DNA of 25,499 nt from a virus (IMGVR_UViG_3300042375_000625:1-25499), one strand, 5' to 3'; shown: positions 637-14,406, numbered from the stretch's first letter. The notes: generated by a model from the letters alone, not told the origin. A program made the numbers and translations.

Positions 637-647
637 CGGGTCTTAAT

Positions 648-664
648 CCTGCGGGGATTGGCAA
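648..664 (-). repeat. Start-proximal element, copy 1
   Basis: Read on the minus strand this is TTGCCAATCCCCGCAGG, followed by 11 bases and the ATG at 636. It matches the core shared with five other sites. It occupies most of the short gap after the 338-residue gene. Confidence 0.8.
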
Positions 665-680
665 GGGGGAGGGGGGGTGG

Positions 681-1697
681 TTAGGAGGGGGGGGTGATTG
701 AATCAATGCGGAAGTCATTCACAAAGGTGATTGAGCCCGCCAAGGTCGGAATTTCAAACTCCAGTGGCGTGTAGGAGCTATTGATTGTAATCGAAAAAGA
801 GTGAGTTCCGGCCTCAGAGACTGTTGACCCGGTCTCGGCAATCATGCCGTAAAACCCGTAGGGGTAAGTTATATTGAATATGTCTCCGAGGGCCGTGGTT
901 TCCACGTTAATAGACTGAAAGGTGATTGTCCCATTGATGACCGTGCCCTCGTTCCAACAACAGACGTTTGCATCGAGCATTATCTTCAGGGTCGTGGTCT
1001 GCTTAAAATTAAAAGTCAATTGGGCGAAGTCGTAATATTCGTAGGTATTGTCTTCTAAATTCAGCACCTCGCTTTGAAAGTTGTCGACCTCTAGGTCAAC
1101 TGACCAAGGCCCAAGCTGTACAGGTGTACCAGGGAACGCGCCAAAACCTGTTGGGACGATAACGTATTGAGTGTCGAACGCTGGGCAGACCCCGGTTGCT
1201 TGTCCTCCTTGGGCTGACACATCGTAAGCGCTGTCTAGGTGCCAGCGAGGACGGTAAAAAAAGCCTGGGAGATTAGGAGGGGCGTTAGTTGTATCATCAA
1301 TTTCACCAGTGTCGCCATTAGGGTCAGGCACAGGATCAGCTGGACCAGGGGCAGGCGTTGGATCGTACTGATAAACAATGTTGTCTGGGTAACTAGACTC
1401 GATGTGTTGATTGGCAGTAAATCCCATCATGTAGATATAATTGCCGAAGCCGTCCGTTGGGTTGTACCAGCCTGCCTCGACTAAACCTAGGTGCACTTTC
1501 GCTACGTTTTCAGATGGGTAGTCTTCGAACCAAGATTGATACGCAAAGAACTCTGGTTGAGCCGGTGGCAAAACACCGCCCGGAGGATTACCTGTTAAAT
1601 TGTCGAGAGTCGTGCCTGTTGGCCGATTAACGTACGGAGTGTCGCCATTTTTACTTAGGAGCACATACACTGCCGCCGCTCGAGGGGGCAAGGCCAT
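681..1697 (-). CDS. Tail tip or receptor-binding structural protein, family not recognised
   Basis: A 338-residue protein beginning MALPPRAAAVYVLL, rich in Tyr, Phe, Asn, Thr and Pro with long beta-strand-like stretches and no enzyme motif. A Pro/Asp-rich segment near residues 112-135 looks like a linker between an N-terminal region and a beta-rich C-terminal half. Its DNA is visibly richer in A and T than the surrounding head genes, which can mark a recently exchanged receptor-binding gene. It starts one base after the stop of the 196-residue gene and ends in a C8 run just before its TAA. Placement between the tape-measure region and the fibre supports a tail-tip or baseplate role. The specific function is unknown. 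Confidence 0.72.
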   Translation of the reverse strand: MALPPRAAAVYVLLSKNGDTPYVNRPTGTTLDNLTGNPPGGVLPPAQPEFFAYQSWFEDYPSENVAKVHLGLVEAGWYNPTDGFGNYIYMMGFTANQHIESSYPDNIVYQYDPTPAPGPADPVPDPNGDTGEIDDTTNAPPNLPGFFYRPRWHLDSAYDVSAQGGQATGVCPAFDTQYVIVPTGFGAFPGTPVQLGPWSVDLEVDNFQSEVLNLEDNTYEYYDFAQLTFNFKQTTTLKIMLDANVCCWNEGTVINGTITFQSINVETTALGDIFNITYPYGFYGMIAETGSTVSEAGTHSFSITINSSYTPLEFEIPTLAGSITFVNDFRIDSITPPS

Positions 1698-1698
1698 G

Positions 1699-2289
1699 TC
1701 AGACGGCGCTCCAGTAGTAAGCCACCGTTGCGCTGCCGCACTTGAAACGCTCAGTCCAAAGCGAGTTGCATCCGATCATGCCGTAAATGTTCAAAGCGTA
1801 GGTAAACGCTGGAGGGTCGCTCTCTGGCACTGCTGTCTTCAGGCCGGTCACTGTGGCTATTAGGATATAACTATAGGTTTCACTGTCAGTTTGTTCAGTT
1901 GCAAAGACGCGCACGGACGGACGGCCTTCGCCGGAGATAGCCGGATAAGTGGCTGAAGGGGGGGCCGTGTTCCCGCAACGGATATAAACGTAGTTAGTCG
2001 ACATCGTGCCTGCCGTAAGGCCAGCGACAAAGGCCTCGATGTCGGGCGGGGGCTCGTCGGTCAGTAGCACCATGTCGTTCGACCTGACTACGATGTTGTT
2101 TACCATGCCCGGGAAGACGTTGAACTTAAACGCCTCGCCGACCTGCCTGAGGTTATAGACTTCGAGCGGGCAGTATTCTTCGCCATTGTATCCTGTCAGC
2201 TGCCAAGCCGCCCAGGGCTTCTCGATGTTGAGGTTAGTCCCTAGGCTAGAGGACATAAAGGTATAGCCCGTTCCTGGTTGGACGCTCAT
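1699..2289 (-). CDS. Structural protein of the tail-tip region, family not recognised
   Basis: A 196-residue protein beginning MSVQPGTGYTFMSSSLGTN. It has many short strands, aromatic residues and several cysteines, and no membrane segment or catalytic motif. Its C-terminal half (YGMIGCNSLW) recalls a YGMIAETG stretch in the next protein, but the likeness is too short to claim a shared fold. It sits tightly between the 293- and 338-residue genes, three bases after the upstream stop, in a run of beta-rich proteins distal to the tape measure. A baseplate or tail-tip component is the best inference from position and composition. Confidence 0.7.
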   Translation of the reverse strand: MSVQPGTGYTFMSSSLGTNLNIEKPWAAWQLTGYNGEEYCPLEVYNLRQVGEAFKFNVFPGMVNNIVVRSNDMVLLTDEPPPDIEAFVAGLTAGTMSTNYVYIRCGNTAPPSATYPAISGEGRPSVRVFATEQTDSETYSYILIATVTGLKTAVPESDPPAFTYALNIYGMIGCNSLWTERFKCGSATVAYYWSAV

Positions 2290-2292
2290 GGC

Positions 2293-3174
2293 TTAGATGT
2301 TGACGTAAACGTCAGGCGGCCAGCCTTCGACAGAGTATCGAATTTCGTACATCACTTTATAAAGCGATCCGTATTCCTCTACGTTAATTTGAGAAAGCAG
2401 ATTCGTGTTTCCGTAAAGGCCAGCGCCAGTCGGTCCCCAAGCTGGGATGAGGGGGAAGGACGCGCCCCAGCTGTTGGTAGCGGTTGCCTTACCGAGAAGC
2501 AAATAAAGAGCCTGCACAAACGTGGCGTCGTTATAATAGCAGACGCCTGAATAAGTCGTCGTGCGGGCGAGGTACTGGGTCTTGCCGTAGATGTCCGGAT
2601 AATCCGGGTCGACAAAGCCGATGAAGCGGCCGCCCATGCCGGTCTCAAAGCAGGCGCCGTAGTTTCCTTCGCAGGAAGGGACCACAACGGGCTTTCCAAA
2701 GGTAGGGCCTGCTGCCTGACTAATCACCGTCACCGGAGGCCCAAGGGTCGAGTCATTGTAAGCGCCGCCAAAGTCAGCCGGCAGGCCAGCCAGGGCGGTG
2801 CCACCGTAGCCCGTTGCCGCGGTGAAGAAGTTCGGGTGAGTCGTGATGTTCTCGGCGGTCAGGCCGTTAGCCGCGGAGGTGTTGGCTTTGGTCCGGGTTC
2901 CACTGTTGACCGTGGGGTCGATTCCGACGTAATCCACCTTGACGGTCTGATACTGAAGCGAGTCGAACGAGACGCTGGCCTTGTGCGCCTTGAGGTAAGT
3001 ATAGCCGGCCTGACCGAAGGCCGTGCCGCGAGCGGTGAGCGATGCAGCGCTGACGGCCCAGTCTAGCTTGTAGGTGGCCGAGGCCGTGACGAGACCGAAG
3101 CCGTCCGTGACGACGGTCCAGCCTGGCTGGATTTTATCGGTCGTGAGATTGTTTCCTGTAGCGACGATGGTCAT
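2293..3174 (-). CDS. Distal tail or baseplate-like structural protein
   Basis: A 293-residue protein beginning MTIVATGNNLTTDKIQPGW. Composition is Gly-, Thr-, Ala- and Tyr-rich, without transmembrane or coiled-coil segments. It is the first gene after the putative tape measure, the usual place of a distal tail protein or of a tail-tip component replacing it. The C-terminus (YSVEGWPPDVYVNI) looks like a closing strand. Upstream of the ATG the leader is A/T-rich (CATTGTTTAATTTACC) with no Shine-Dalgarno sequence. I recognise no family, so the role rests on gene order. Confidence 0.72.
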   Translation of the reverse strand: MTIVATGNNLTTDKIQPGWTVVTDGFGLVTASATYKLDWAVSAASLTARGTAFGQAGYTYLKAHKASVSFDSLQYQTVKVDYVGIDPTVNSGTRTKANTSAANGLTAENITTHPNFFTAATGYGGTALAGLPADFGGAYNDSTLGPPVTVISQAAGPTFGKPVVVPSCEGNYGACFETGMGGRFIGFVDPDYPDIYGKTQYLARTTTYSGVCYYNDATFVQALYLLLGKATATNSWGASFPLIPAWGPTGAGLYGNTNLLSQINVEEYGSLYKVMYEIRYSVEGWPPDVYVNI

Positions 3175-3180
3175 GGTAAA

Positions 3181-3975
3181 TTAAACAATGCCCGCCTTCT
3201 GCATGGTGAGGGGGACGCGTTCGGTAAAGGGTGCAGGGACGGTGCCGTTGCGGTTGAGGATGAATTGCTCCTGGAGGATGATTTTGATTTCTTCCATGAT
3301 CTCGTTCTGGCGGGTCATCTTCTCCATGACCGGGTTGGCGCCTACGCCGACGACCGTGCCGAAACCTTCGGGGCCCTTGAATGAGCCGGCCTTTTGCTTG
3401 TTCTCATCGGCCGCAAAAATGTGAGCGTACTTCTTGCCCTCTTCGGAATTAAGGAACTCTTGAAGTGCCATGTCCTGATATTCTTTCTGCATGGCAAGTT
3501 GCGCAGGGCTAGGTGCTACGCCTTCTCCCCTAGTATTGGCGGCGGTTTCCTCTTCGATTTTCTGCATCACTTCCCTGCCCCTAACTGTATCAGTAAAGAA
3601 CTTTTCGGTCATCAGCTGACGACCTTCTTTTACTTTCTTTTCTTCCTCTTCAGTGGCGGCTTTTAACTTTAAGAATCGAGCCATCTTGGCCTCGTCAGTT
3701 GAAGCGAAAACAGATTCGCCTTTAGCAATAAGGTCGAGCCCATCCTTTGCGTCTTGCTTGGCCTTTTCAATGGCGCTGGAGATGGCGCCGATAAGAGACT
3801 GAAGGATGACCATCGGGGCGGTGAAGCCGAGGAAGATGTCCTTGAATGAGCTGCCGAACTTCTTGCCGATGTCGCCCAGCTGCTTGTCGAAACCAGACGC
3901 GGCCGATGAAGCCTTGCCCATAGCCTGGGGAACGTCGGAGGTCGTCTTGATGTTTACGGTAAGGTCTTGGGCCAT
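3181..3975 (-). CDS. Putative short tape measure protein
   Basis: A 264-residue protein. Residues 1-30 (MAQDLTVNIKTTSDVPQAMG) resemble the start of many tape measure proteins. Residues about 46-69 form one hydrophobic segment (IFLGFTAPMVILQSLIGAIS), and about 95-235 are charged and helical with likely coiled coil. Tape measure proteins fill the tail tube, set its length and can enter the host membrane, so one hydrophobic helix within a helical protein fits. It directly follows the chaperone-position gene, as expected. Usual siphophage tape measures have 600 to well over 1000 residues, so this would imply a very short tail. Alternatively it is a tail needle or ejection protein. Its start is preceded by copy 2 of the repeated element and by AAAGGAAA. 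Confidence 0.6.
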   Translation of the reverse strand: MAQDLTVNIKTTSDVPQAMGKASSAASGFDKQLGDIGKKFGSSFKDIFLGFTAPMVILQSLIGAISSAIEKAKQDAKDGLDLIAKGESVFASTDEAKMARFLKLKAATEEEEKKVKEGRQLMTEKFFTDTVRGREVMQKIEEETAANTRGEGVAPSPAQLAMQKEYQDMALQEFLNSEEGKKYAHIFAADENKQKAGSFKGPEGFGTVVGVGANPVMEKMTRQNEIMEEIKIILQEQFILNRNGTVPAPFTERVPLTMQKAGIV

Positions 3976-3987
3976 AGTCGGTTTCCT

Positions 3988-4560
3988 TTAACCTGCTGGA
4001 TTGGCAACGGCCGCGGACTCGGCCTGCCGCTTTAGTTCGGACTCGATATAGGCCTCTTCCTCCGGCGACATGATCGCGACGTCGACCCCCTTGCGCATGG
4101 CGAAGGCCGCATTGAGCCAGATGGCCTGACACTCCGGCATCTCCCATGCGCGCTTTTCCTCGATGTTATTTGCCACAAGGTTAGCGACGACCATCAGCGG
4201 CCACGGTGCTTTACTGCTCCCGCCGGTCTTCTTATCGGTCTGGTCCCAGAACTTCGGCCAGTGGCTGACCAGGATGTAGTCGGCGAAGGCCTTGAGCATC
4301 AGTTCAAACTTAGCGGGGTTATCGTTCATCCGCCCGATCCGCAGCTTGTCCACCCAGCTGAGCCCGCCCAAGGGTTCCTCGGCGCACACTTGGCAGGCGA
4401 AGATAAGGTCGGCAGGCGTCACGCCGCGGGAGCCGGTCACCAGCGGGGAGTCGAAGGCCATCAGCCGTACCCGGTACTTGAGGCAGAAAGGGTAGAGCGT
4501 ACGCCCTAGGAACTTGAGGGGCGCCGGGTCGATTTGACTATCTAGGAAGCGGCGGTCCAC
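3988..4560 (-). CDS. Putative tail assembly chaperone-position protein (GTG start)
   Basis: A 190-residue mainly helical protein, initiated at a GTG (first residues read VDRRFLDSQIDPAPL). No ATG lies in frame upstream, and the first internal ATG would remove a conserved-looking N-terminus. Trp-, Leu- and Ala-rich helices (WVDKLRIGRM, LMLKAFADYILVSHW, CQAIWLNAAFAM) and the position between putative tail tube and tape measure suit a tail assembly chaperone, which holds the tape measure during tube assembly. I see no clear X-XXY-YYZ slippery heptamer near its 3' end, so the usual frameshifted extension is not supported. Its last residues VANPAG plus stop are encoded by copy 2 of the repeated element. 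Family call is moderate. Confidence 0.6.
   Translation of the reverse strand: MDRRFLDSQIDPAPLKFLGRTLYPFCLKYRVRLMAFDSPLVTGSRGVTPADLIFACQVCAEEPLGGLSWVDKLRIGRMNDNPAKFELMLKAFADYILVSHWPKFWDQTDKKTGGSSKAPWPLMVVANLVANNIEEKRAWEMPECQAIWLNAAFAMRKGVDVAIMSPEEEAYIESELKRQAESAAVANPAG
3992..4007 (-). repeat. Start-proximal element, copy 2 (inside upstream gene end)
   Basis: Minus strand TTGCCAATCCAGCAGG, one base shorter in the middle than the other copies and 16 bases from the ATG at 3975. It overlaps the last codons of the chaperone-position gene, and the following bases supply its TAA stop. Confidence 0.7.
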
Positions 4561-4571
4561 CCCTTTAGATT

Positions 4572-4590
4572 ACCCCCACAACAGGGGAGT
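4572..4590 (-). other. Hairpin between tail tube and chaperone-position genes
   Basis: In the minus-strand RNA, ACUCCC and GGGGGU can pair (one G-U pair) around a seven-base loop in the 33-base gap after the tail tube stop. No run of U follows, so it is not a typical intrinsic terminator. It may protect the 3' end of the tail tube message or lower read-through. Weak evidence. Confidence 0.35.
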
Positions 4591-4593
4591 CAA

Positions 4594-4977
4594 TCAATAG
4601 GTAATCTCTTCAAAGGACTCGGCAGTCAGAGAGACTGTCACGAACCCTTTCGAGCTGCCGCGGTCGTCTACTTTTGTGATGACTCCCGAGAAGCTGACCG
4701 AAGCAGAACCGCCGGGATAAGCCGAAGCGGTCTTGACCGTAAAGGAAAGAGTAGCGCCGAGAGCAGGAATCGAAGAAGCGTTTGCCACGCCCTCGACCGT
4801 AATCTCGGAGCGGCGGTCGTCATAGCGAGCCGTAATGGTGCGGCCAGTCTCATCGACCACCATGCCGGTGTTGTTGAAGCCAGACGAGACGGTGTAGCTC
4901 TGCACAAAAAGCGAGGCCTGTTGGCCGGCTCCAATTCCGTAGAGGCAAACAGTTCCGGTATTTACAGCGGCGCACAT
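4594..4977 (-). CDS. Putative major tail (tube) protein
   Basis: A 127-residue, strongly beta-stranded protein beginning MCAAVNTGTVCLYGIGAGQ. Its C-terminal half alternates hydrophobic and polar residues (GATLSFTVKTASAYPGGSAS, GFVTVSLTAESFEEITY). It lies between the tail-terminator-like gene and the chaperone-position gene, where siphophages encode the major tail protein that polymerises into the tube. It is shorter than common major tail proteins (about 150-250 residues), so it may be a minimal tube domain. Copy 3 of the repeated element ends six bases before the ATG, which strongly supports this start. An alternative is another small head-tail structural protein. Confidence 0.6.
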   Translation of the reverse strand: MCAAVNTGTVCLYGIGAGQQASLFVQSYTVSSGFNNTGMVVDETGRTITARYDDRRSEITVEGVANASSIPALGATLSFTVKTASAYPGGSASVSFSGVITKVDDRGSSKGFVTVSLTAESFEEITY

Positions 4978-4983
4978 CTTAAA

Positions 4984-5000
4984 CCTGCGAGAATTGGCAA
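4984..5000 (-). repeat. Start-proximal element, copy 3
   Basis: Minus strand TTGCCAATTCTCGCAGG followed by TTTAAG and the ATG at 4977. With three bases of spacer it fills the whole gap after the upstream TAA, so there is no room for a conventional promoter between the genes. Confidence 0.85.
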
Positions 5001-5003
5001 CCC

Positions 5004-5438
5004 TTAGGCAGGGGGCAGGACGGTGAGGACGTCATAGGCAAAGGACGTCGCCCAGGAGCGCTCGTCGATGCCCTCGTCTTCGGACCTTGGGGTGACGTCA
5101 TAGCAGGTCGCGTCACCCGTAGCGGCGAAGGCCGCCTGAATGGAGGCCACGTCATTCATGTTGCCGGAGAGGGCGGCACATCGGGCCCGGTGATCGGCGA
5201 GCGTCGTGTCATCAGCGTTCGAGAAGAGCGTGATGCGGACCGAGCAGCTGAAGTTGCCGAGGCCTTCAGGCAGGTCAGCGGGAGGGCTTGCGGAGTCGCA
5301 GAGGACCACGGCCTTAGGCAGGGTCTGGGTGACGTTACTGTCCCCAGTCAGGAACTGCACGGTGGTCAGCCCGGTCTGGGTCGAGAGATAAGTCGCGAGA
5401 GTGGCCTCGACGACGTGGCGAATAGAACGTGTGCCCAT
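5004..5438 (-). CDS. Putative tail terminator or completion protein
   Basis: A 144-residue protein starting MGTRSIRHVVEATLATYLST. It has an N-terminal helix (VVEATLATYL), a central strand pair (KAVVLCDSAS, CSVRITLFSNADD) and a segment ending YDVLTVLPPA. This helix-strand layout and size match tail terminator proteins such as lambda gpU and DUF3168-like proteins, which cap the tube and join it to the head. Its place, just before the tail tube gene and after the connector genes, agrees. The leader CAACAAATAACCC before the ATG has no Shine-Dalgarno sequence. Fold-level assignment by position and pattern only. Confidence 0.6.
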   Translation of the reverse strand: MGTRSIRHVVEATLATYLSTQTGLTTVQFLTGDSNVTQTLPKAVVLCDSASPPADLPEGLGNFSCSVRITLFSNADDTTLADHRARCAALSGNMNDVASIQAAFAATGDATCYDVTPRSEDEGIDERSWATSFAYDVLTVLPPA

Positions 5439-5441
5439 GGG

Positions 5442-6404
5442 TTATTTGTTGTTAAATTTGTTGACCGGCTTGCGCATGCGATAGCGGACCATGGCAGGCA
5501 TCTGCTTCACGCGGTTGCCGTAGACCAGGGGAAGGACGCCCGCTTCGTCGGAGATGCCGTTAATGTTGCCGATAGGGTTGGTCACAGAGACCTCCGCGAT
5601 CTTGTCGGTGAAGGTGTTCTTATTGTACCCAGCAACGCCAGAATGCAAGGTCACCCAAGTCGCCTTGCGCAGCTCTGCCCCGGGCTCGCCCTGCTGGCCG
5701 TTGTTATCCTTGGGCCTAGGCAGGCTGCTCATGGCCTTGGCCCAGCCAGACTTGACCATGCCGACCATCTTCTGGCGCTTGAGGATGTAGTCTTGCAGCT
5801 CGTTCTTATCTTCGACCAGGAGCTTGGCCGAGACGGCCTTCTGGCCTCGCTTGATGCGGCCGCCGAAGCGACCTTTGACCTGGTCATGGATTGAGCGCAG
5901 GTTCGTCACATAGCCCTGCGTTCCGTACTCGTTCTTGATGGGGGTCGCCCGGTTGAGGAAGTTCTTGGCCTTGGCAAACGCCCGGGCCTTGTCGGAGTCT
6001 TGCACAATCTTCGAGAGGATGTTCCGGCTGCTGATCTGGCTCAGGGCTTTGCCCCCGTTAGTCAGGCGCGTGAAGGCGCCGATGTCGTTCGACTTAACTG
6101 CAAAGGCAATCTGGTTGATAATCAAACCGACCGCAGACCTGTTGGTCGAGTCGTTTGCGGCCACGAATATTTTGGATATGTCCCCGGCCACGGCGTTGAG
6201 GCCAGCCTTCTTAGCTGCGGGGCTCAGGCCGTCGCCGCCGCCTAGGGGGAGGGGGGGCGTAAACTTGGCCGCGTCCTGACAAGCCAGCATGGCCTGCTCG
6301 AGCACGGCGTCCCGCATGGTAATCTTCATGCCCGCGGCGAACTGCCGGCAGGCCTCGACGAACTGTTGCAGGGACTTCGGCTCGATGGAGACCTTGGCCG
6401 GCAT
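5442..6404 (-). CDS. Head-tail connector or minor tail protein, gp10-like by position
   Basis: A 320-residue protein. I place the start at the ATG at 6404 (MPAKVSIEPKSLQQFVEACR) because it overlaps the previous stop as TAATG; the upstream open frame runs through the coding part of the preceding gene. The N-terminal 60 residues have the long-helix and CQDAAKFTPPLP character seen in HK97 gp10-like or minor tail protein Z-like neck proteins. The remainder is a basic helical region (FGGRIKRGQKA) and a C-terminal domain ending RYRMRKPVNKFNNK. It is more than twice the length of HK97 gp10, so extra domains are present. It lies between a head-closure-like gene and the tail terminator. Family identity is uncertain. 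Confidence 0.6.
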   Translation of the reverse strand: MPAKVSIEPKSLQQFVEACRQFAAGMKITMRDAVLEQAMLACQDAAKFTPPLPLGGGDGLSPAAKKAGLNAVAGDISKIFVAANDSTNRSAVGLIINQIAFAVKSNDIGAFTRLTNGGKALSQISSRNILSKIVQDSDKARAFAKAKNFLNRATPIKNEYGTQGYVTNLRSIHDQVKGRFGGRIKRGQKAVSAKLLVEDKNELQDYILKRQKMVGMVKSGWAKAMSSLPRPKDNNGQQGEPGAELRKATWVTLHSGVAGYNKNTFTDKIAEVSVTNPIGNINGISDEAGVLPLVYGNRVKQMPAMVRYRMRKPVNKFNNK

Positions 6405-6781
6405 TACTGGTTGTCGTCGATGACGATCAGGGTCAACCAGGCTGACGCGGGCTTGTAGGTCTGAGTAATAATGCGCACGGTCTTCCCGCCGACGACAATC
6501 TTCTTCCCCTGGCCTAGGCTGGCGATGGGGAGGCCTCCGCTGATGATGGCCGTGGACGCCCCCGTAGAGCCGTCTGGGAGGCTCCAGGAGGCCGTTGCGG
6601 CGGGGAGCCTGACAGAGTACTGGGTACGCTCCATGTAGCCCCCAGATTCGAGGACGGTCTGCATTGCCGGGTCGGAGATGAGGCAAGAGAAGGTGATGGC
6701 CCCAGAGTTAGCCGAGCCGGCCACAGGGAAGTCGGCCACCATCTCCTTCGCGTCAGGGAGGAATTCAGCAAAGAGGCTCAT
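6404..6781 (-). CDS. Head completion or head-closure-like protein
   Basis: A 125-residue protein. The ATG at 6781 (MSLFAEFLPDAKEMVADF) is chosen over one at 6814, because copy 4 of the repeated element ends six bases before it and the longer start would lie in the terminator hairpin. An N-terminal helix is followed by beta-rich sequence (GAITFSCLISD, QYSVRLPAATASW, GKTVRIITQTYKP), which fits small head-closure or head-tail joining proteins that bind under the portal. It is the first gene after the major capsid terminator and overlaps the next gene as TAATG. Family not firmly recognised. Confidence 0.62.
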   Translation of the reverse strand: MSLFAEFLPDAKEMVADFPVAGSANSGAITFSCLISDPAMQTVLESGGYMERTQYSVRLPAATASWSLPDGSTGASTAIISGGLPIASLGQGKKIVVGGKTVRIITQTYKPASAWLTLIVIDDNQ

Positions 6782-6787
6782 TCTAAA

Positions 6788-6804
6788 CCTGCGACCATTG
6801 GCAA
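6788..6804 (-). repeat. Start-proximal element, copy 4
   Basis: Minus strand TTGCCAATGGTCGCAGG, then TTTAGA and the ATG at 6781. It begins within ten bases of the end of the major capsid terminator, so the gene it serves depends on read-through or on a signal in the element. Confidence 0.85.
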
Positions 6805-6812
6805 ACAGGCAC

Positions 6813-6840
6813 AAAAAAAGGGCCCCTTGCGGAGCCCCTT
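6813..6840 (-). terminator. Intrinsic terminator after major capsid gene
   Basis: Minus strand AAGGGGCTCC, loop GCAA, GGGGCCCTT, then a run of T. The stem has nine pairs with one bulged G, a GNRA tetraloop and a seven-base U tract in the RNA. It lies about 20 bases after the capsid stop and is the clearest terminator in the window. It probably lets the capsid message accumulate above the connector and tail messages. Confidence 0.85.
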
Positions 6841-6859
6841 GATTTGAACGTCAGACCGC

Positions 6860-7738
6860 TTAGGCAGCGGTGACGTAGCGAACTGCCGAGGTACCGCGGC
6901 CCTTGTTCGCGCCGATGAGGATCTGAGCGATGCAACGGATGTTGCCCGTTTCAGCCTGACCGACGAGGACCTGGATGGACAGGCCGGACTCGGCGGTGGC
7001 GACGCTGGAGGTGAAGCCGGCGATTTCAGCCATCGGCACCCCAGTGGCGACCAGCAGCGAATCGGGTCCCATAGCCACGCCCGCGAGATTCTCGACGTTC
7101 GGGATCTGGTTCCACTGGTAGATATCCATGCCGGCGACCTGACCGACGTTGCCGGTGGTGACAACGGTGTTGGCGCTCGGGTTGAGGGAGCTGACGAGGG
7201 AGGCGGAGTTGCGGAGGGCCTTCAGGTAGCCGTTGCCGACGAGGAAGGAGCGAGGCTGACCAGCCTTTGCGGAGTCGAGGAGGAACTGAGCGTTCACAAC
7301 GTCATCATAGCCGAAGTCATTGACGGTAACGATTTCTTCCGTGGCGAAGTTGGCGGTCGTGAAGACGGCGCCGATTTCTTCCCAGCACTTGTCGACGATG
7401 GCCTGAGCGGCGGTCTTCGCGTAAGCGTTGATGAGGTACTGCATGCCGAACTCCTGGATGTCCAGGGGGCTGAACTCGTCGACGTACTTGAAGTGCTTGA
7501 GGGTGACCGAGGAGTTGGTCATCGTGGCGCCGTCAACATCCGCGAGGGTGTTGGAGGCCTTGTTGAATTCCGAGGCCGTGCCCGAACCCATGATCGGGAC
7601 GAAGACGGTCTTGCCAGCGCGGCCAACGGAGGCCGAGAGGTTGACGGAGATGTTGTTGAGGATCGGGAGCTTTCCGGCAACCGTCTGAACAATATAGTCA
7701 GACAGGATAGCGGGCGCCGTAGGTAGAACAGTAGCCAT
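6860..7738 (-). CDS. Major capsid protein (HK97 fold expected)
   Basis: A 292-residue protein. The N-terminal region (LSDYIVQTVAGKLPILNNIS, then GKTVFVPIMGSG) is the usual opening of capsid proteins of the P22 coat or related HK97-fold groups: a helix, a strand region with Gly-Lys-Thr, then a polar loop. The middle (SPLDIQEFGMQYLINAYAKT) matches the long spine helix, and the C-terminal part (GVAMGPDSLLVATG, IQVLVGQAETGNIRCIAQI) resembles the P and A domains. It forms the icosahedral shell around DNA. It follows protease and scaffold genes and is the only head gene with its own strong terminator, as expected for the most abundant protein. Its leader is C/A-rich (TAAACACACATACCT). The exact capsid family is unresolved. 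Confidence 0.85.
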   Translation of the reverse strand: MATVLPTAPAILSDYIVQTVAGKLPILNNISVNLSASVGRAGKTVFVPIMGSGTASEFNKASNTLADVDGATMTNSSVTLKHFKYVDEFSPLDIQEFGMQYLINAYAKTAAQAIVDKCWEEIGAVFTTANFATEEIVTVNDFGYDDVVNAQFLLDSAKAGQPRSFLVGNGYLKALRNSASLVSSLNPSANTVVTTGNVGQVAGMDIYQWNQIPNVENLAGVAMGPDSLLVATGVPMAEIAGFTSSVATAESGLSIQVLVGQAETGNIRCIAQILIGANKGRGTSAVRYVTAA

Positions 7739-7761
7739 AGGTATGTGTGTTTAGGGGAGGG

Positions 7762-8193
7762 TTAGAAAGAAATGAGAGCGGCCTTGTGCGCGTTGAAGAA
7801 CGCGATGCGGGCCTGACCGGCAGGGAGAGCGAGGTAGGCGGACTTGATGTCGGCGTTGCTCATCTTCGAGGGGCTGTCGCCCTTCGGAAGTTCGACAGGT
7901 TCGGTACCGAAGGACGCCACGATCTTGGCGGCTTCCTTGGAGGCGGTCACCTTGGTGGCTTCGAGCTCAGTGGCCTTAGCCTTGAAGGTAGAAAGTTCGG
8001 CTTCGCAGACCTTGAGGGCTTCCGTGAGGGAAGCGATGGAGGCGTCCTTCACGGAGGCCTCGACGCGAAGGGCGTCAAGTTCGGCAGAAGCGCCGACGGT
8101 CATCTTCTCCACGGTGCTGCGGAGGTCGTCGCGTTCGGCAGTAAGGCCGGCCAGAGAGGCGGCGGCCGTGACGAGTTGCTCTTCGATGGTCAT
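7762..8193 (-). CDS. Capsid scaffold-like protein from internal start (nested)
   Basis: Starting at the internal ATG at 8193 (MTIEEQLVTAAASLAGLTAE) gives 143 residues in the same frame as the HAD fusion. Nearly all of it is heptad-rich coiled coil to about residue 93, then a Pro/Gly linker (EPVELPKGDSPSKMS) and a C-terminal helix pair that may contact the capsid protein. Size, helical character and place before the major capsid gene fit a phage scaffold. In lambda the scaffold gpNu3 is likewise made from an internal in-frame start, there inside the protease gene. The six-base spacing of the element to this ATG equals copies 3 and 4. Internal initiation is inferred, not proved. Confidence 0.65.
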   Translation of the reverse strand: MTIEEQLVTAAASLAGLTAERDDLRSTVEKMTVGASAELDALRVEASVKDASIASLTEALKVCEAELSTFKAKATELEATKVTASKEAAKIVASFGTEPVELPKGDSPSKMSNADIKSAYLALPAGQARIAFFNAHKAALISF

Positions 8194-8625
8194 CTTAGAC
8201 CTGCGAGAATTGGCAACCGTGCCCTCGGGAGATTCCTGCGCGGGAACCTCTTCGACGTCATCTTCCTCGACCATCTCAGGGATGGCAGCGGGGTCCATGA
8301 CCTCCACGCCCAGGGCGGAGACGGCGTCACGGGTGTCGGCGCGGTTGTCGATAAATAGGTCAACCGGGCGGCCGGCATCGAGCTCGGCCTTGACCACGCC
8401 AGCCTTGAAGGCAGGGGCTTCAGCGCCGGAGTCATTCATGATCAGGGCGTCGTACTCGAAGCCGATGGCGTCGAGGTCGGCCACGGTCTTCTCGCGTTCG
8501 CTCTCGGCGCGGTTGGTCAGCACGACGACCTCTTCGCCATGGGCGTCGATGTAGTCGATGACGCGCTCGACGGGCTGGCCGTCTTTCAGGATGGTGTCGT
8601 CGATGTCGGTGAAGATGCGGGGCAT
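7762..8625 (-). CDS. HAD-family phosphatase domain fused to capsid scaffold-like domain
   Basis: A 287-residue ORF in two halves. Residues 1-110 are a HAD-family hydrolase: motif I DIDDT with Asp7 and Asp9, motif II VVLTNRA with Thr37, a Lys around 74-79, and motif IV LFIDNRAD with Asp93 and Asp97, so all catalytic positions appear present. An acidic linker (about 115-138, MVEEDDVEEVPAQ) leads to residues 145-287, a Glu/Ala/Lys-rich coiled coil with a short C-terminal helix (ARIAFFNAHKAAL). Position between the prohead protease and the capsid gene is where scaffolds lie. Copy 5 of the repeated element is inside the ORF just before Met145, so a separate scaffold can start there. HAD phosphatases act on phosphorylated small molecules or DNA/RNA ends; the substrate is unknown. 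Confidence 0.8.
   Translation of the reverse strand: MPRIFTDIDDTILKDGQPVERVIDYIDAHGEEVVVLTNRAESEREKTVADLDAIGFEYDALIMNDSGAEAPAFKAGVVKAELDAGRPVDLFIDNRADTRDAVSALGVEVMDPAAIPEMVEEDDVEEVPAQESPEGTVANSRRSKMTIEEQLVTAAASLAGLTAERDDLRSTVEKMTVGASAELDALRVEASVKDASIASLTEALKVCEAELSTFKAKATELEATKVTASKEAAKIVASFGTEPVELPKGDSPSKMSNADIKSAYLALPAGQARIAFFNAHKAALISF
8200..8216 (-). repeat. Start-proximal element, copy 5 (internal to HAD-scaffold ORF)
   Basis: Minus strand TTGCCAATTCTCGCAGG, identical in the core to copy 3, followed by TCTAAG and the ATG at 8193. Here it is also translated in the long frame, as part of VANSRRSK joining the HAD linker to the scaffold. Confidence 0.85.
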
Positions 8626-8626
8626 G

Positions 8627-9421
8627 TTAGAAAGAGGCTAGGGCTTTGTTGAACGAGTCGGCGAGGCCAGTGACCAAGCCCTGGGCGGCGGCCTGCTTGC
8701 CGGAGAAGACCTGACCACGGAGGGCGGAGTCTGCGACGAGCGTACGCTTGGAGCGGATGGCGGCCTTGAAGTCTTCGTGAATCGAGTCGACGCCAGCCTG
8801 GAGGTCGGCGATCTGCTCGTCAGAGAGGGACGTGCCCTCGATACCGGCGCCCTTCAGGGGGGAGCCAGACGACTTGATGACGACCATGCGGACGCCCGAG
8901 TCTTCGTAGAGTTTGGACATGTCGGGCACGGCCATGTAGACGCCCACGCTGCCGACGGTGGCAGAGCTTGAGGACACGACGCGATCAGCCTGAGAGCCAA
9001 GCCAGTAAGCAGCCGAAGCCATCTCGGAGTCAGTGTAGGCCATGGTCGGCTTGCCAAGGTCGCGAATCTTGTTCGCTAGTTCCTCGACGCCGGTGACCGT
9101 GCCACCAGGGGAGGAGATGTTGAAGGCAATCTTCTCGACCGCAGGGTCAGCTGCGAAGAGGTCGACGGCCATGGAGAGGTCGTTCACGTCGACGGCGCCC
9201 ATCATCTTCTCGATGGGGCTCAGGTTCTTGCCGATGACGCCGGCAATCGGGATGACGCCGACGCCGTTCTGGACGTAGGGCACCGGGGCCACGCCGAAGA
9301 ACTGCGCGAGCATGTCAGTGAAGCCGAACTTCTCGGCCATGACAGAGAAGTCTTGGGCCTTGGCCGGGTCAATCAGGAGAGGCTCGCGGCCCTTGAGGCC
9401 GTGGGATAAAAAGCGGGACAT
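8627..9421 (-). CDS. Prohead protease, S49 (SppA/lambda gpC-like) family
   Basis: A 264-residue serine peptidase of family S49. The start is the ATG at 9421 (MSRFLSHGLKGREPLLIDPA), one base after the portal stop; the frame upstream only shadows the portal gene. A ClpP-like core begins near residue 53 (GVGVIPIAGVIG). It has the SSPGG oxyanion-region turn at about 103-107, the nucleophile Ser136 in MASAAYW, and the probable general-base Lys190 in SPLKGAG. In lambda-like phages this enzyme sits inside the procapsid and trims scaffold and portal before maturation. Gene order portal-protease-scaffold-capsid matches. Unlike lambda gpC, no scaffold is nested in it; the scaffold is in the next gene. 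Confidence 0.92.
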   Translation of the reverse strand: MSRFLSHGLKGREPLLIDPAKAQDFSVMAEKFGFTDMLAQFFGVAPVPYVQNGVGVIPIAGVIGKNLSPIEKMMGAVDVNDLSMAVDLFAADPAVEKIAFNISSPGGTVTGVEELANKIRDLGKPTMAYTDSEMASAAYWLGSQADRVVSSSSATVGSVGVYMAVPDMSKLYEDSGVRMVVIKSSGSPLKGAGIEGTSLSDEQIADLQAGVDSIHEDFKAAIRSKRTLVADSALRGQVFSGKQAAAQGLVTGLADSFNKALASF

Positions 9422-9422
9422 A

Positions 9423-10937
9423 TTATTTTTCGTTAGTAGAGACGCCGGGGAGTGGTTCAGCCTGGTCGACTTGGGCGACCGTGCCGAGGGGAGTGTTAGT
9501 TGGGCGGAACAGCAGCTCGAAGGGGATGCCGTACTGCTTGGCAAGGTTCTGGATATGCGCCATGTCGGCGGCTCGCTTCTCCATCTCGGAGCGGAAGTCG
9601 AGGCCGCGCTGGCCGTAGAGCTCAGACATGGACATGAGACCCATCTCGATGTCGGCGCGATCGTTGGCGGCTTCGCGGCCAGCGTCGACGGTGACGGACT
9701 TTGGAGTGGTCCACGAAGCGTTGTACCAGGCTGGGTCGTCTGGGATTTCTCCCCGGGCAATGCCGTCGGCGATAATGTATTCCCAAGTCGGCTGACAGAA
9801 GGTCGTCAGAATGACCTGCTGATATTTTCCGAAGACCCGGGCGGCCTTAGCGGTGACCAATCGAACCCCAGCTCCGCCGGCCGAAGTTACGTCTTTTACG
9901 AATTCGTACGGAAGGACGGAGCAGATGTCTTTCTCCAGCGCCGCGAGGAATCCGACGAAGGTCGAATTCGGTCTTTTTGACTCAAAACTTTCAAAGCGAT
10001 CAGAGCTCTCTAGCACGATAGCCTTGCCGCCCATCTGGCTTGCGACGTTCTCGGCAGAGCCACGGCTATTTGAAATCTCAGAGGCCGCATCCTCATCGAG
10101 GAATCCTGAGCCGCGAAAAATCACTCGATTAACGTCACCGTTGTCTTTCACTGCGCGACGCTCGAGGTCGAGGATTTCTTTCACATCCTGGACCCCGCAG
10201 AGCGCAGACTGAAGCACTGGAACGCCGCGGGAGCCCGAGGCCGTTTCCATGTCGACGATGTGCATGACAGACTGGGCCTCAACCTTGCGGGAGGAACCGT
10301 CAGCCTGATATATAGAATAGTAAATCGGTTCGTTAAACTTACCGAAGCCAATGCCGTCCCAGCAATCCGAAGGGGTATCAGTGTCGGTCGGGTCGCCACA
10401 ACGGTGGGCCTCGACGATCTGCACCTGTGCCCGGTCACCGTTAACGACCTTGATAGCAAAGGCGTCACCGTCACGGACCATTGCCCGGACAAGGATTGAC
10501 TGGCACTGGGCAAAGGACTTGCCGGAGACGTCGATGCGCTTAGATTCGCGGGCGAAGTATTCTTCGTACTGGCGGGCAACCTCGGGGTCGCTTGCGTGGG
10601 ACTGCGGCTTGATACCGTCGCCCGAGACGTAGATGACCAGGTCGTTCAAAATCGAGCGGAACAGCGAGGACTCGCGTTCAGCCCAGCGGCACTTCTTGAC
10701 CATCTCGTTGCGGTCCCATGGGGACATGTCGCGGCGCATGTCATCCGGCTGCGGAGCGTAGATGACGCGGCGAGCGTATGTCTGGACGGTCGAACCCCAC
10801 TCGTTCCCGCTGTACTGGTTATTGAAACGGCCCTGAGATACAGTTGCGGCCTGCGGCGCCGGCGTACCCTTGCGGGTGGACGGCTTGCCCTTCTTCGGGC
10901 GCAGGCTGACGGTCGGGACTTTCTTGCGGGGGGGCAT
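9423..10937 (-). CDS. Portal protein, lambda gpB-like
   Basis: A 504-residue protein of the lambda-type portal family. Residues 1-35 are a basic, Pro-rich arm (KKVPTVSLRPKKGKPSTRKG). The central region contains RDGDAFAIKVV and VPVLQSALCGVQDVKEILDL. The C-terminal region has WTTPKSVTVDAGREAANDRA followed by GLMSMSELYGQRG, the typical W-x-x-P...VD...E segment of gpB portals. Portals form a dodecameric ring at one capsid vertex through which DNA is packed and ejected. It lies between the gpW-like gene (three bases upstream) and the S49 protease. The leader ATCGACTAATTT has no Shine-Dalgarno sequence. Assignment is firm. Confidence 0.93.
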   Translation of the reverse strand: MPPRKKVPTVSLRPKKGKPSTRKGTPAPQAATVSQGRFNNQYSGNEWGSTVQTYARRVIYAPQPDDMRRDMSPWDRNEMVKKCRWAERESSLFRSILNDLVIYVSGDGIKPQSHASDPEVARQYEEYFARESKRIDVSGKSFAQCQSILVRAMVRDGDAFAIKVVNGDRAQVQIVEAHRCGDPTDTDTPSDCWDGIGFGKFNEPIYYSIYQADGSSRKVEAQSVMHIVDMETASGSRGVPVLQSALCGVQDVKEILDLERRAVKDNGDVNRVIFRGSGFLDEDAASEISNSRGSAENVASQMGGKAIVLESSDRFESFESKRPNSTFVGFLAALEKDICSVLPYEFVKDVTSAGGAGVRLVTAKAARVFGKYQQVILTTFCQPTWEYIIADGIARGEIPDDPAWYNASWTTPKSVTVDAGREAANDRADIEMGLMSMSELYGQRGLDFRSEMEKRAADMAHIQNLAKQYGIPFELLFRPTNTPLGTVAQVDQAEPLPGVSTNEK

Positions 10938-10940
10938 AAA

Positions 10941-11197
10941 TTAGTCGATGCGGTTATCCCAACGGGTGTTAACCATGGTCACTCGGCGACCATACTTGCC
11001 CGGATCGAGACGGCTTAGGGCGAACATGGATTCGTTCAAGACCTCCTTCGGCGTCATGCCTGGGAAAGCCTTGGTCGCGGAAGACCCGGAGTCTGCGTAG
11101 GACATGAGCGTTTTGCCGTCCATGATCAGCGCAAGGGCCTTGGCTTTGAGGTCGAGTAACTCGCACTCGGTGAGGCCGATAAAATATCCTTGAGCCA
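10941..11197 (-). CDS. gpW-like head-tail connector
   Basis: An 85-residue protein. The ATG at 11197 (MAQGYFIGLTECELLDLKAK) is chosen because copy 6 of the repeated element ends five bases upstream; a frame open to 11273 adds an Arg-rich, unlikely N-terminus. An N-terminal helix (CELLDLKAKALALIM), a DGKTLMSYADSG turn region and a second helix (PKEVLNESMFALSRL) match the helix-hairpin-helix plan of lambda gpW (68 residues), which joins portal and tail connector. The place between large terminase and portal is exactly that of gpW. Sequence identity to gpW is not obvious, so the call rests on layout and position. Confidence 0.72.
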
Positions 11198-11202
11198 TTT
11201 GA

Positions 11203-11219
11203 CCTGCGTAAATTGGCAA
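11203..11219 (-). repeat. Start-proximal element, copy 6
   Basis: Minus strand TTGCCAATTTACGCAGG, then TCAAA and the ATG at 11197. It lies at the end of the 113-base gap after the large terminase stop. A short GC hairpin (GGGCG, loop GCAG, CGCCC on the plus strand, 11227-11240) sits just upstream of it. Confidence 0.8.
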
Positions 11220-11310: not shown

Positions 11311-13104
11311 TCATGCGGAAGGCAAGTCGGTTTCAGTTGTTTCCTTGCCCACGATGCCCCAGCGGACGGCGGCCAGCAGACCGAGCAGCTCGCAGTCGAA
11401 AGCGTGGTTGTCCTTCTTGCCCTGCGGCAACAGCCACTGGGGCTTACCCGTGCGCCTGTCCTTTACGCGGACCTCGGCTGACATCTGGTCGACGTAGTCT
11501 TGCCCTGCGTCTAGGGCGTACGAAAAGGCGCGGCGTGAGCGGAGCCCGTGCATCAGATCCTTGCCCCCGAGGTTCGACCAGACCAGGAGCACGGCGCGGG
11601 TCTGGAGACCGGGCACCATGATAGTCTGCTTATCGGAATAAAATCGGCGGGTCGTCTTGCCGTCCTTGGTCGTCACGCTGAAGTCTTCGTTGCCCGAACC
11701 CTTTGCGCACTTCCAGCCACGCATGGCGGTCTGGCGATATACGTCTTGGGCTTGGTCTCCGGCGTCAACCATAACGAGGGCCGGGTGCACGGCGTGGAGT
11801 TTGACGAAGGCCTCGACGTCCTGCCAGGTCTCAATCTTGGCGAAGGCCTTCAGGCGGCTGTGCCCGGTGCGACTCCAGCGGCGGACTACGCAATATAGGT
11901 GACCACGTTGAACGTCGATGCCGGCGGTGCGGAAAGGGAACGAACCTTCTGGCGCTCCCTCGCGGTCGACCACTCGGCCCTTGGGTGTGATGACTGACTC
12001 GCCGTCCCAGTCGTCGGCCATGTTGTAGTTGGCGGCCTGTGCGATGTTCACGATCTCCCCGCCTTCCTCGGCCCACGGAAGTGCGAGCCTCTTCTGCTTG
12101 AATTGGCGACGAGCGTCGTCGCTCCCGTAGACTTCATAGTCTTCCTTCCCCTTAATCATCATGACGGCCAGTTCGCCCCAGCTCATAGACGCGAGCGAGT
12201 TCCAGTGAAGGCCGATGTGCCCGGAGTTAGCGGAAGAGGCTGTAGCCACAAAGCAGCCGCGAGCGTTCGCTTCCATGCGGGTGGCGTTAGTGTCTGGCAG
12301 CCGGGTCTGGCAGCCGGCGCACTCGTAAGTCGTGCCAGCGCTGACCTTCTGCAAATCCCATGAGCCCGTGAGCTTCGCGTCTTCTGGAAATCGAACCTGC
12401 TCCCAGAGGTAGGGCTGAAGATGCGAACAAGATTCAACGGGGCATCGAAAGTTCCAGTCACGCTGATCGGTGGATTCGTGCAGCTGATGGAATTCCTGAC
12501 CAGCCCGTCCGCCCTGGCTCATGAAGATTCGCTTACCCATCCAGCCGAACGCAGTCACTCGAGCGCTTAATTCCGCTAGGTGCCCGGGAGGTGCCTGCCA
12601 GCATTCGTCTGCAATTGTATAACGGAGCGAGAGGCGCTGAAGGTTGGCTTCGTTCCACAGGCCGCGGCAGTAAAGCGTCATGCGGTCGAAGTCCGTCGTC
12701 GTCGAGCGATCCATGTCGTCGACCGAGATGCGGGCCTTCACCGGCGGGCAGTTGTTCCAGACTGGACGCATGTAGCGCAGGGCGAAGTCCTTAGATTCCG
12801 CATCCGTACTTTGGAAGACTGCGGTAGGCCCTGGAGCGTTTGCGATTATGTGGCAGGTGAACAGACGAGCGAAGAGAGACTTGCCCGACTGGATGCTGGC
12901 GAGAATGGTCAGCAGTTTCGTCTCAGGGTCGGCGGCAATCCGCAGCGCCTCCGCGATCCATGGCGTCCGCTCCGACCTGAATGGCCCGGGCATCGGAGAG
13001 TCAGGGATGGCGAGGACGTTGTCTTCGAGCCACTGCACCACGTCGCCCGAGTCCGCCGGCTTAAGCACGTCACGGCCTACGCGGAGTAGGTCAGCCTTGT
13101 TCAT
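11311..13104 (-). CDS. Terminase large subunit, GpA family
   Basis: A 597-residue packaging ATPase-nuclease. The ATG at 13104 (MNKADLLRVGRDVLKPADSG) overlaps the small terminase end by 14 bases and is preferred to a start at 13149 lying deep in that gene. The ATPase domain has a Walker A-like ASIQSGKS at about 69-76 and a Walker B-like YTIADECW with Asp166-Glu167. Cys residues in CPVESC and CAGC (about 237-275) form a probable zinc site, as in GpA proteins. The nuclease domain shows AGIDVQRGH, VMVDAGDQ and DNHAFDCEL acidic clusters. It cuts and pumps phage DNA into the procapsid via the portal. GpA family terminases often, but not always, make cos ends. Very secure. Confidence 0.95.
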   Translation of the reverse strand: MNKADLLRVGRDVLKPADSGDVVQWLEDNVLAIPDSPMPGPFRSERTPWIAEALRIAADPETKLLTILASIQSGKSLFARLFTCHIIANAPGPTAVFQSTDAESKDFALRYMRPVWNNCPPVKARISVDDMDRSTTTDFDRMTLYCRGLWNEANLQRLSLRYTIADECWQAPPGHLAELSARVTAFGWMGKRIFMSQGGRAGQEFHQLHESTDQRDWNFRCPVESCSHLQPYLWEQVRFPEDAKLTGSWDLQKVSAGTTYECAGCQTRLPDTNATRMEANARGCFVATASSANSGHIGLHWNSLASMSWGELAVMMIKGKEDYEVYGSDDARRQFKQKRLALPWAEEGGEIVNIAQAANYNMADDWDGESVITPKGRVVDREGAPEGSFPFRTAGIDVQRGHLYCVVRRWSRTGHSRLKAFAKIETWQDVEAFVKLHAVHPALVMVDAGDQAQDVYRQTAMRGWKCAKGSGNEDFSVTTKDGKTTRRFYSDKQTIMVPGLQTRAVLLVWSNLGGKDLMHGLRSRRAFSYALDAGQDYVDQMSAEVRVKDRRTGKPQWLLPQGKKDNHAFDCELLGLLAAVRWGIVGKETTETDLPSA

Positions 13105-13884: not shown

Positions 13885-14406
13885 TTAATGACGGTTGAAC
13901 GTCACGCGCATCTTATCGCGCTTGCTGTTGCAGTGAGGGAACAAGCCCTGGGCGTCTGAGTTAACGGCCAGCTGTATGACGCGGGCTCGCTTGCGCATGG
14001 CCTCATGTGTCAGGCCGTACATCTTTGCGATCATACGCGAGGACATGCACCCGGGCAGACTGAGCGCCCAGCGTACGAGCTCGACGTGCCGGCGAATCTC
14101 CATGGAGCCGCTCATAGCCAGGGCATCGATAAAGGCCTTGAGCATGACTGCAACGTGCTCGCGGGAAATAAACGAGTCGACTTCGACATGCTGCTCTCTC
14201 GCGGCAACGATAGAATCCTGCATCCAGCGGACGTGCTCGTCCTTGATTTTAAAGACGTGCCGGCTCTGCACCATCTCGCGGTAAGGCAGGACGCCAGCGT
14301 TGCGCATCTTCTCTTGATTCTTAACCGACTGGGAAAAGAACCACGCGTCGAACGACTTAGCCTCTTTGGTGGGAGCCTCGAGGTCATTGATGCGAGCCTT
14401 CGTCAT
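13885..14406 (-). CDS. Probable DNA-binding protein, candidate regulator
   Basis: A 173-residue, mostly helical, basic protein. Residues about 128-150 (PGCMSSRMIAKMYGLTHEAM, then RKRARV) look like a helix-turn-helix: helix, turn, and a recognition helix beginning near THEAMRKRA. The N-terminal part (FDAWFFSQSVKNQEKMRNAG) is helical and charged. No enzyme motif is seen. It overlaps the previous gene by 23 bases and is the last gene before the late control region, so it is a fair candidate for the regulator acting there. That link is inference from position only. Confidence 0.65.
   Translation of the reverse strand: MTKARINDLEAPTKEAKSFDAWFFSQSVKNQEKMRNAGVLPYREMVQSRHVFKIKDEHVRWMQDSIVAAREQHVEVDSFISREHVAVMLKAFIDALAMSGSMEIRRHVELVRWALSLPGCMSSRMIAKMYGLTHEAMRKRARVIQLAVNSDAQGLFPHCNSKRDKMRVTFNRH

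Follow-up and report, generated by a model that had tools for sequence, protein, structure and literature searches.

The DNA analysed here, referred to as the window in the following, is a complete linear virus record from IMG/VR with a length of 25,499 bases. Its large terminase subunit (TerL), portal, protease, major head protein and a frame joining HAD and scaffold sequences were named by family search, and the remaining structural genes by position or ortholog only. Six genes, all in the structural half of the genome, are each preceded by a copy of a short element of the form TTGCCAAT-N3/4-GCAGG (Table 1); the genes of the small terminase subunit (TerS) and of TerL, the first late genes, have none. 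The pattern TTGCCAATN{2,5}GCAGG matches exactly six times in the window, always on the minus (coding) strand, and not at all in 100 dinucleotide shuffles of it. Scored with a weight matrix, the six copies reach 25.7–29.6 bits, and the runner-up, located within the TerL gene, 15.2. An earlier note, made from the sequence alone, had reported six start-associated copies on one strand that spare the portal, protease, capsid and early genes, and both the pattern search, with no further sites, and the matrix scan bear this out.

Table 1. Features of the late region in the window. The core is the 16–17-base unit recognized initially; the position of each copy extends to the conserved A.
Feature	Position	Strand	Core	Description
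Copy 1	644..664	minus	648-664	TTGCCAATCCCCGCAGG + ATTA; conserved A 644; precedes gene 316-636
Copy 2	3988..4007	minus	3992-4007	TTGCCAATCCAGCAGG + TTAA; spacer one base shorter; conserved A 3988; precedes gene 3181-3975
Copy 3	4980..5000	minus	4984-5000	TTGCCAATTCTCGCAGG + TTTA; conserved A 4980; precedes gene 4594-4977 (tail-tube-like by position)
Copy 4	6784..6804	minus	6788-6804	TTGCCAATGGTCGCAGG + TTTA; conserved A 6784; precedes connector-like gene 6404-6781
Copy 5	8196..8216	minus	8200-8216	TTGCCAATTCTCGCAGG + TCTA; conserved A 8196; precedes scaffold ATG 8193, within HAD-scaffold frame 7762-8625
Copy 6	11199..11219	minus	11203-11219	TTGCCAATTTACGCAGG + TCAA; conserved A 11199; precedes gpW-like head-joining gene 10941-11198
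Promoter-like boxes	4561..4593	minus		TTGACT-N15-TAATCT; end 6 bases before GTG of gene 3988-4560
Intrinsic terminator	6817..6840	minus		between major capsid gene and copy 4
Major head protein	6860..7738	minus		uncoupled start without element
TerL	11311..13104	minus		anchor for finding relatives
HTH protein	13885..14406	minus		candidate trans-acting factor; 173 aa; sigma-region-4-like helix-turn-helix; upstream of small terminase gene

The element sits mostly at starts that are uncoupled from an upstream stop codon. The gaps ahead of the element-bearing starts measure 112, 78, 26, 12 and 44 bases, with one further start being internal, and most late genes without the element begin 0–6 bases from the preceding stop, the exceptions being the capsid gene (23) and gene 3988-4560 (33). 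The latter is uncoupled and lacks the element; it has conserved promoter-like boxes ahead of it; in clades A and B of the relatives described below, TTGAC-N15/16-TAnnCT or TATAGT boxes lie 6–7 bases before the start of this gene (g3988), with a weaker version in clade D. The leader of the capsid gene (7739-7762, minus strand) also lacks the element; it is rich in C and A, CCTAACACAC-like, and resembles its counterparts in the other clades. In the frame 7762-8625, an N-terminal HAD phosphatase-like domain is fused to the scaffold, so that the element and the scaffold start are internal; some relatives carry a stop codon just ahead of the element, and the scaffold is therefore a separate gene there. 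The 3'-terminal bases of gene 3988-4560 overlap copy 2, and copy 4 directly follows the terminator, as had been noticed before, an order that is retained in relatives.

Between GCAGG and ATG there are six bases in three copies and 4, 11 and 16 in the others, which agrees with the original description apart from one distance given there as five. As for the proposed reading of four copies as VANxRR, the copies at 4984, 6788 and 8200 read so in frame with their own ATG, the one at 11203 does so in another frame, and the remaining two do not. This reading is a by-product of the element sequence. Shared coding sequence can likewise be dismissed as the source of the conservation, because the reading frames differ between copies, and because the third codon positions under the copy before g3181, where g3988 and g3181 overlap, are frozen while neighbouring codons vary.

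In relatives with 85–99% TerL identity, the element is found at the same starts wherever these are readable. A matrix scan of the window and six near relatives, a check that had been suggested at the outset, gave no comparable match beside other starts and the expected six sites in each relative, except for one missed in G003, where the site is either a variant picked up by another scan or not covered. In more distant relatives, the positions are retained, but the sequence has changed by clade. TTCCAA..GCAA is one of the forms found there. Clade B has YTnCCAA-N5-GCAA, clade D TTGCC-N6/7-GCAA, clade E TTCCACT..GCAA and clade F CCAAA..ACACTAGTA, and the forms of clades C1, C2 and C3 are TTTTTAC..CCATAGTTA, CAACTTTAGAGAC and TT[GT]ACC..CCAAGGTTA, respectively. 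In clade B (L121:5107, L084, L093), there is sometimes a seventh copy before g5004, with AAGG beside the start, which represents a site gain. Within a genome, all copies agree, and between genomes they shift together: the mean cross-gene similarity of elements inside genomes is 9.25 vs 7.18 ± 0.14 after genome shuffling, and none of 1000 shuffles reaches 9.25. Thus, the element is conserved in related phages in its positions, with clade-specific sequence. The core described initially, with its six copies, was correctly recognized; what had been missed is the extension by about three bases past GCAGG to an invariant A, as well as the change by clade.

This A is part of a constant layout, with the first block at -20/-19, CA at -7/-6 and the almost invariant A, conserved in 96% of 260 instances, at +1. 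When 279 instances are aligned on the second block, the A is the sixth base after CA in 91–100% of each spacing class (76% in the longest class); genes without the element have an A in 20–50% at the matching distance from the ATG. A pyrimidine precedes the conserved A in 80%. In clades A, C3 and D, the first block keeps to -20 or -19; in clades B, E and F, CCA lies at -17/-16. The start codon lies at the conserved A or up to 17 bases beyond it in 279/279 instances and never earlier, and the distance from CA to ATG is at most 22 bases. Judged from the alignments, this architecture looks like an initiation site, including the start nucleotide.

Several readings can be set aside. A Shine-Dalgarno (SD) site is rejected, since GCAGG gives way to GCAA, GCAT or CCAT in other clades and complementarity to the 16S 3' end is not conserved; the element is thus conserved beyond any SD role, as had been supposed. 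An RNA hairpin, in which UUGC would pair with GCAR, is compatible with clade A, but in clade B the third base becomes T, A or C with an unchanged GCA partner, and the folds are weak. For an antisense small RNA, the best duplex (-23.2 kcal/mol) is not better than those of eight shuffled elements (-22.9 to -31.3). By inspection, the copies lack the GG/GC spacing of a sigma-54 site. Rfam returned no match to the element, and no gene for a single-subunit RNA polymerase was seen in the window.

Which factor, then, reads the element? Among 26 genes compared across 27 genomes, the best predictor of element similarity is the identity of a helix-turn-helix (HTH) protein (rho 0.71; 0.81 without clade A), a correlation that is descriptive, as genome pairs are not independent. 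When HTH identity is held constant in the full set, other genes contribute little, at most 0.25. For the element before g316, the identity of g316 itself gives a rho of 0.15 and that of the HTH protein 0.67. The clearest cases are natural recombinants, all from metagenomic contigs. G032 and G023 share 97% identity in the portal, 98% in the protease, 95% in the scaffold, 96% in the capsid and 90% in g316, but only 33% in the HTH protein, and their element types differ at the scaffold, gpW and g316 despite the near-identical proteins. Conversely, G023 and G031 have HTH proteins with 94% identity and a common element type, with scaffolds that are only 51% identical. As far as such sequence comparisons go, element type follows the HTH allele and not the gene behind the element. 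This concerted, allele-linked evolution strongly supports the idea of a binding site for a trans-acting factor, and it leaves the recombination linker between modules, considered in the earlier note, without support, since the element does not travel with its downstream gene but is re-tuned after gene exchange.

All clades carry the HTH gene wherever their contigs extend over this part of the genome, and its product is the only nucleic-acid-binding candidate found to track element type. Many contigs (in the sets L144-L163 and L106/L129) end just past this gene or begin just ahead of the small terminase gene, which suggests that the genome ends lie near the two. In Foldseek searches with an AF2 model of mediocre confidence (pLDDT 72), the top matches of the HTH protein are mostly to sigma region 4, which its C-terminal half resembles at an E-value of 0.13 or worse, that is, below significance; no region 2 was seen. 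Sequence searches of the PDB gave nothing significant, Pfam and PHROG gave no match to RinA, ArpU or Ltr, no homolog was found in phage P8625, and scans with the HTH proteins of clades C1 and C2 returned few relatives.

The HTH allele does not segregate alone. It does so together with the block from the connector to g3181, and the two are therefore statistically inseparable without clade A, outside of which the block accounts for the pattern about equally well; there, the partial correlation between element and HTH protein vanishes once g5004 is held constant. The reader could accordingly be another product of this block, with the link to the HTH protein being incidental. We consider this quite improbable: the elements of gpW, the scaffold and g316 lie outside the block and still follow the HTH protein, the block contains no recognized nucleic-acid-binding candidate, and its correlation with the element is to be expected, because block genes carry three of the six elements, which are inherited along with them.

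We favour, with somewhat less than even confidence, the reading that late genes are initiated at the six copies, which form one regulon controlled in trans by a product of the phage, most likely the HTH protein, and that the copies are used as promoters. This protein would recognize the element as DNA ahead of the six structural genes, and the conserved A would be the transcription start. The element would then serve as a compact late promoter whose use by RNA polymerase depends on the HTH protein, and the mRNAs of the six cistrons would have a short leader or none, in a host lineage with little use of SD sites. The earlier note had argued that some gaps are too short for a promoter, which is not safe, as about 20 bp suffice if transcription begins at the conserved A. 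Judged by related terminases on contigs of metagenome-assembled genomes (MAGs), the host group is the Opitutales/Verrucomicrobiota; in GenBank, Verrucomicrobia phage P8625 gives the match with the best E-value. A scarcity of SD sites has been reported for some Verrucomicrobia (PMC10783764), and in this phage an SD-like 4-mer precedes 2 of 36 genes without the element. Three MAGs of the host group contain no exact copy of the element.

A conventional promoter is not apparent. Where the element lies, no strong pair of sigma-70-type -35 and -10 hexamers with a distance of 16–18 bp is present, and a promoter scan of the late region stayed at chance level. The stretch from -12 to -7 lacks an A/T-rich -10 box, and DNA melting at this place would thus be unusual. 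The missing element at TerS and TerL, the insignificant structural matches of the HTH protein and the metagenomic origin of all natural recombinants also count against the promoter reading. The missing box is its main weakness and makes an element that acts in the mRNA the main rival, and a serious one, if on balance unlikely. Here, the element would be a translational operator or enhancer over the ribosome-binding region, by which the HTH protein or a different phage protein switches the six late cistrons on or off; the translation enhancer or RNA–protein site of the earlier note would be of this kind. Such an element would account for the constant use of the coding strand, for the vicinity of the start codon even where the gap exceeds 100 bases and for the mostly uncoupled starts, with a core motif that is never overlapped by the ATG, and the Start-Associated Sequences of cluster K mycobacteriophages, discussed below, have been interpreted likewise. 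However, the factor that co-segregates best has the look of an HTH protein that binds DNA, the SD-like GCAGG is lost in other clades, and the hairpin pairing is broken in clade B. Alternatively, an endonuclease might cut the mRNA ahead of the conserved A and so produce short-leader monocistronic mRNAs. The motif closes in a fixed YA on its 3' side and the start codon never lies ahead of it, which would suit such processing, but no candidate RNA nuclease co-segregates among the tested genes, and we regard it as very improbable.

Taken together, these observations suggest a dedicated, virus-made switch for the start of late genes in phages of Verrucomicrobiota. The natural recombinants amount to swap experiments that tie the element sequence to one phage gene, and the question of its reader is thereby directly testable. 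If the promoter reading is true, it shows how late genes are timed and started in phages of SD-poor hosts, and a set of orthogonal regulator–site pairs is gained. More tentatively still, the element may stand for a new class: a compact phage late promoter from about -20 to +1 with no -10 box, a sigma-region-4-like reader made by the phage and mRNAs that begin at or just before the AUG, in which specificity changed repeatedly and the sites were re-tuned in concert, including those before genes acquired by recombination.

Late regulators of the RinA, ArpU and Ltr types are encoded beside the terminase genes and act at a late promoter ahead of the packaging genes. Likewise, the small HTH protein described here is encoded just ahead of the small terminase subunit, but its six putative sites are all internal to the operon, and TerS is not preceded by one. 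The stoperators of cluster A mycobacteriophages, temperate phages with more than 20 such sites that include promoters and are not tied to starts (PMC9283540), share with the element an asymmetric bipartite build, one orientation relative to transcription, a location in short gaps and a specificity that co-evolves with a phage HTH protein. By analogy, a phage repressor might halt elongation at the element within the late operon, and a profile match links the HTH protein to the TipsytheTRex repressor, albeit at an insignificant E-value of 0.59. We consider such a roadblock improbable, because it leaves the closeness to start codons and the invariant A unexplained; moreover, the sequence match to TipsytheTRex is not significant, and family scans showed neither an integrase nor a lysogeny gene. 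Unlike stoperators, the sites here number only six, every one at a start.

In phage P8625 (L107), TTGNNA-N17-TANNNN-N6/7-ATG occurs at five structural starts (5412, 9620, 10736, 15558 and 17505), the positions of gpW and the connector among them, but not at all in shuffles; GTATCCA or TGGATAC often accompanies it. These boxes are predicted leaderless promoters of the sigma-70 type; a text search of the P8625 genome paper found no mention of them. Since they, like the boxes of gene 3988-4560, lie near start codons, leaderless starts appear plausible in this group. P8625 resembles our phage in the predicted start of transcription at the start codon, with sigma-70-type TTGACA/TANNNN boxes 17 bases apart instead of the motif described here.

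The closest described kind are the Start-Associated Sequences (SAS/ESAS) of cluster K mycobacteriophages, which have a 13-bp consensus, GGGATAGGAGCCC, with the SD core AGGAG and, since their description in 2011, are still without a known reader or function (PMC3203893, PMC11373665). Both are short asymmetric repeats a few bases before the starts of uncoupled genes, in one orientation, conserved with gene families and beyond SD pairing, and absent from the host. SAS, however, mark non-structural genes of the right arm and contain AGGAG, whereas our element marks structural genes, lacks an SD core in most clades and differs from the SAS consensus in every clade. With this different consensus and gene class, we do not file it as SAS. 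What sets it further apart is the concerted, clade-specific change of its sequence and the HTH allele that is linked to it.
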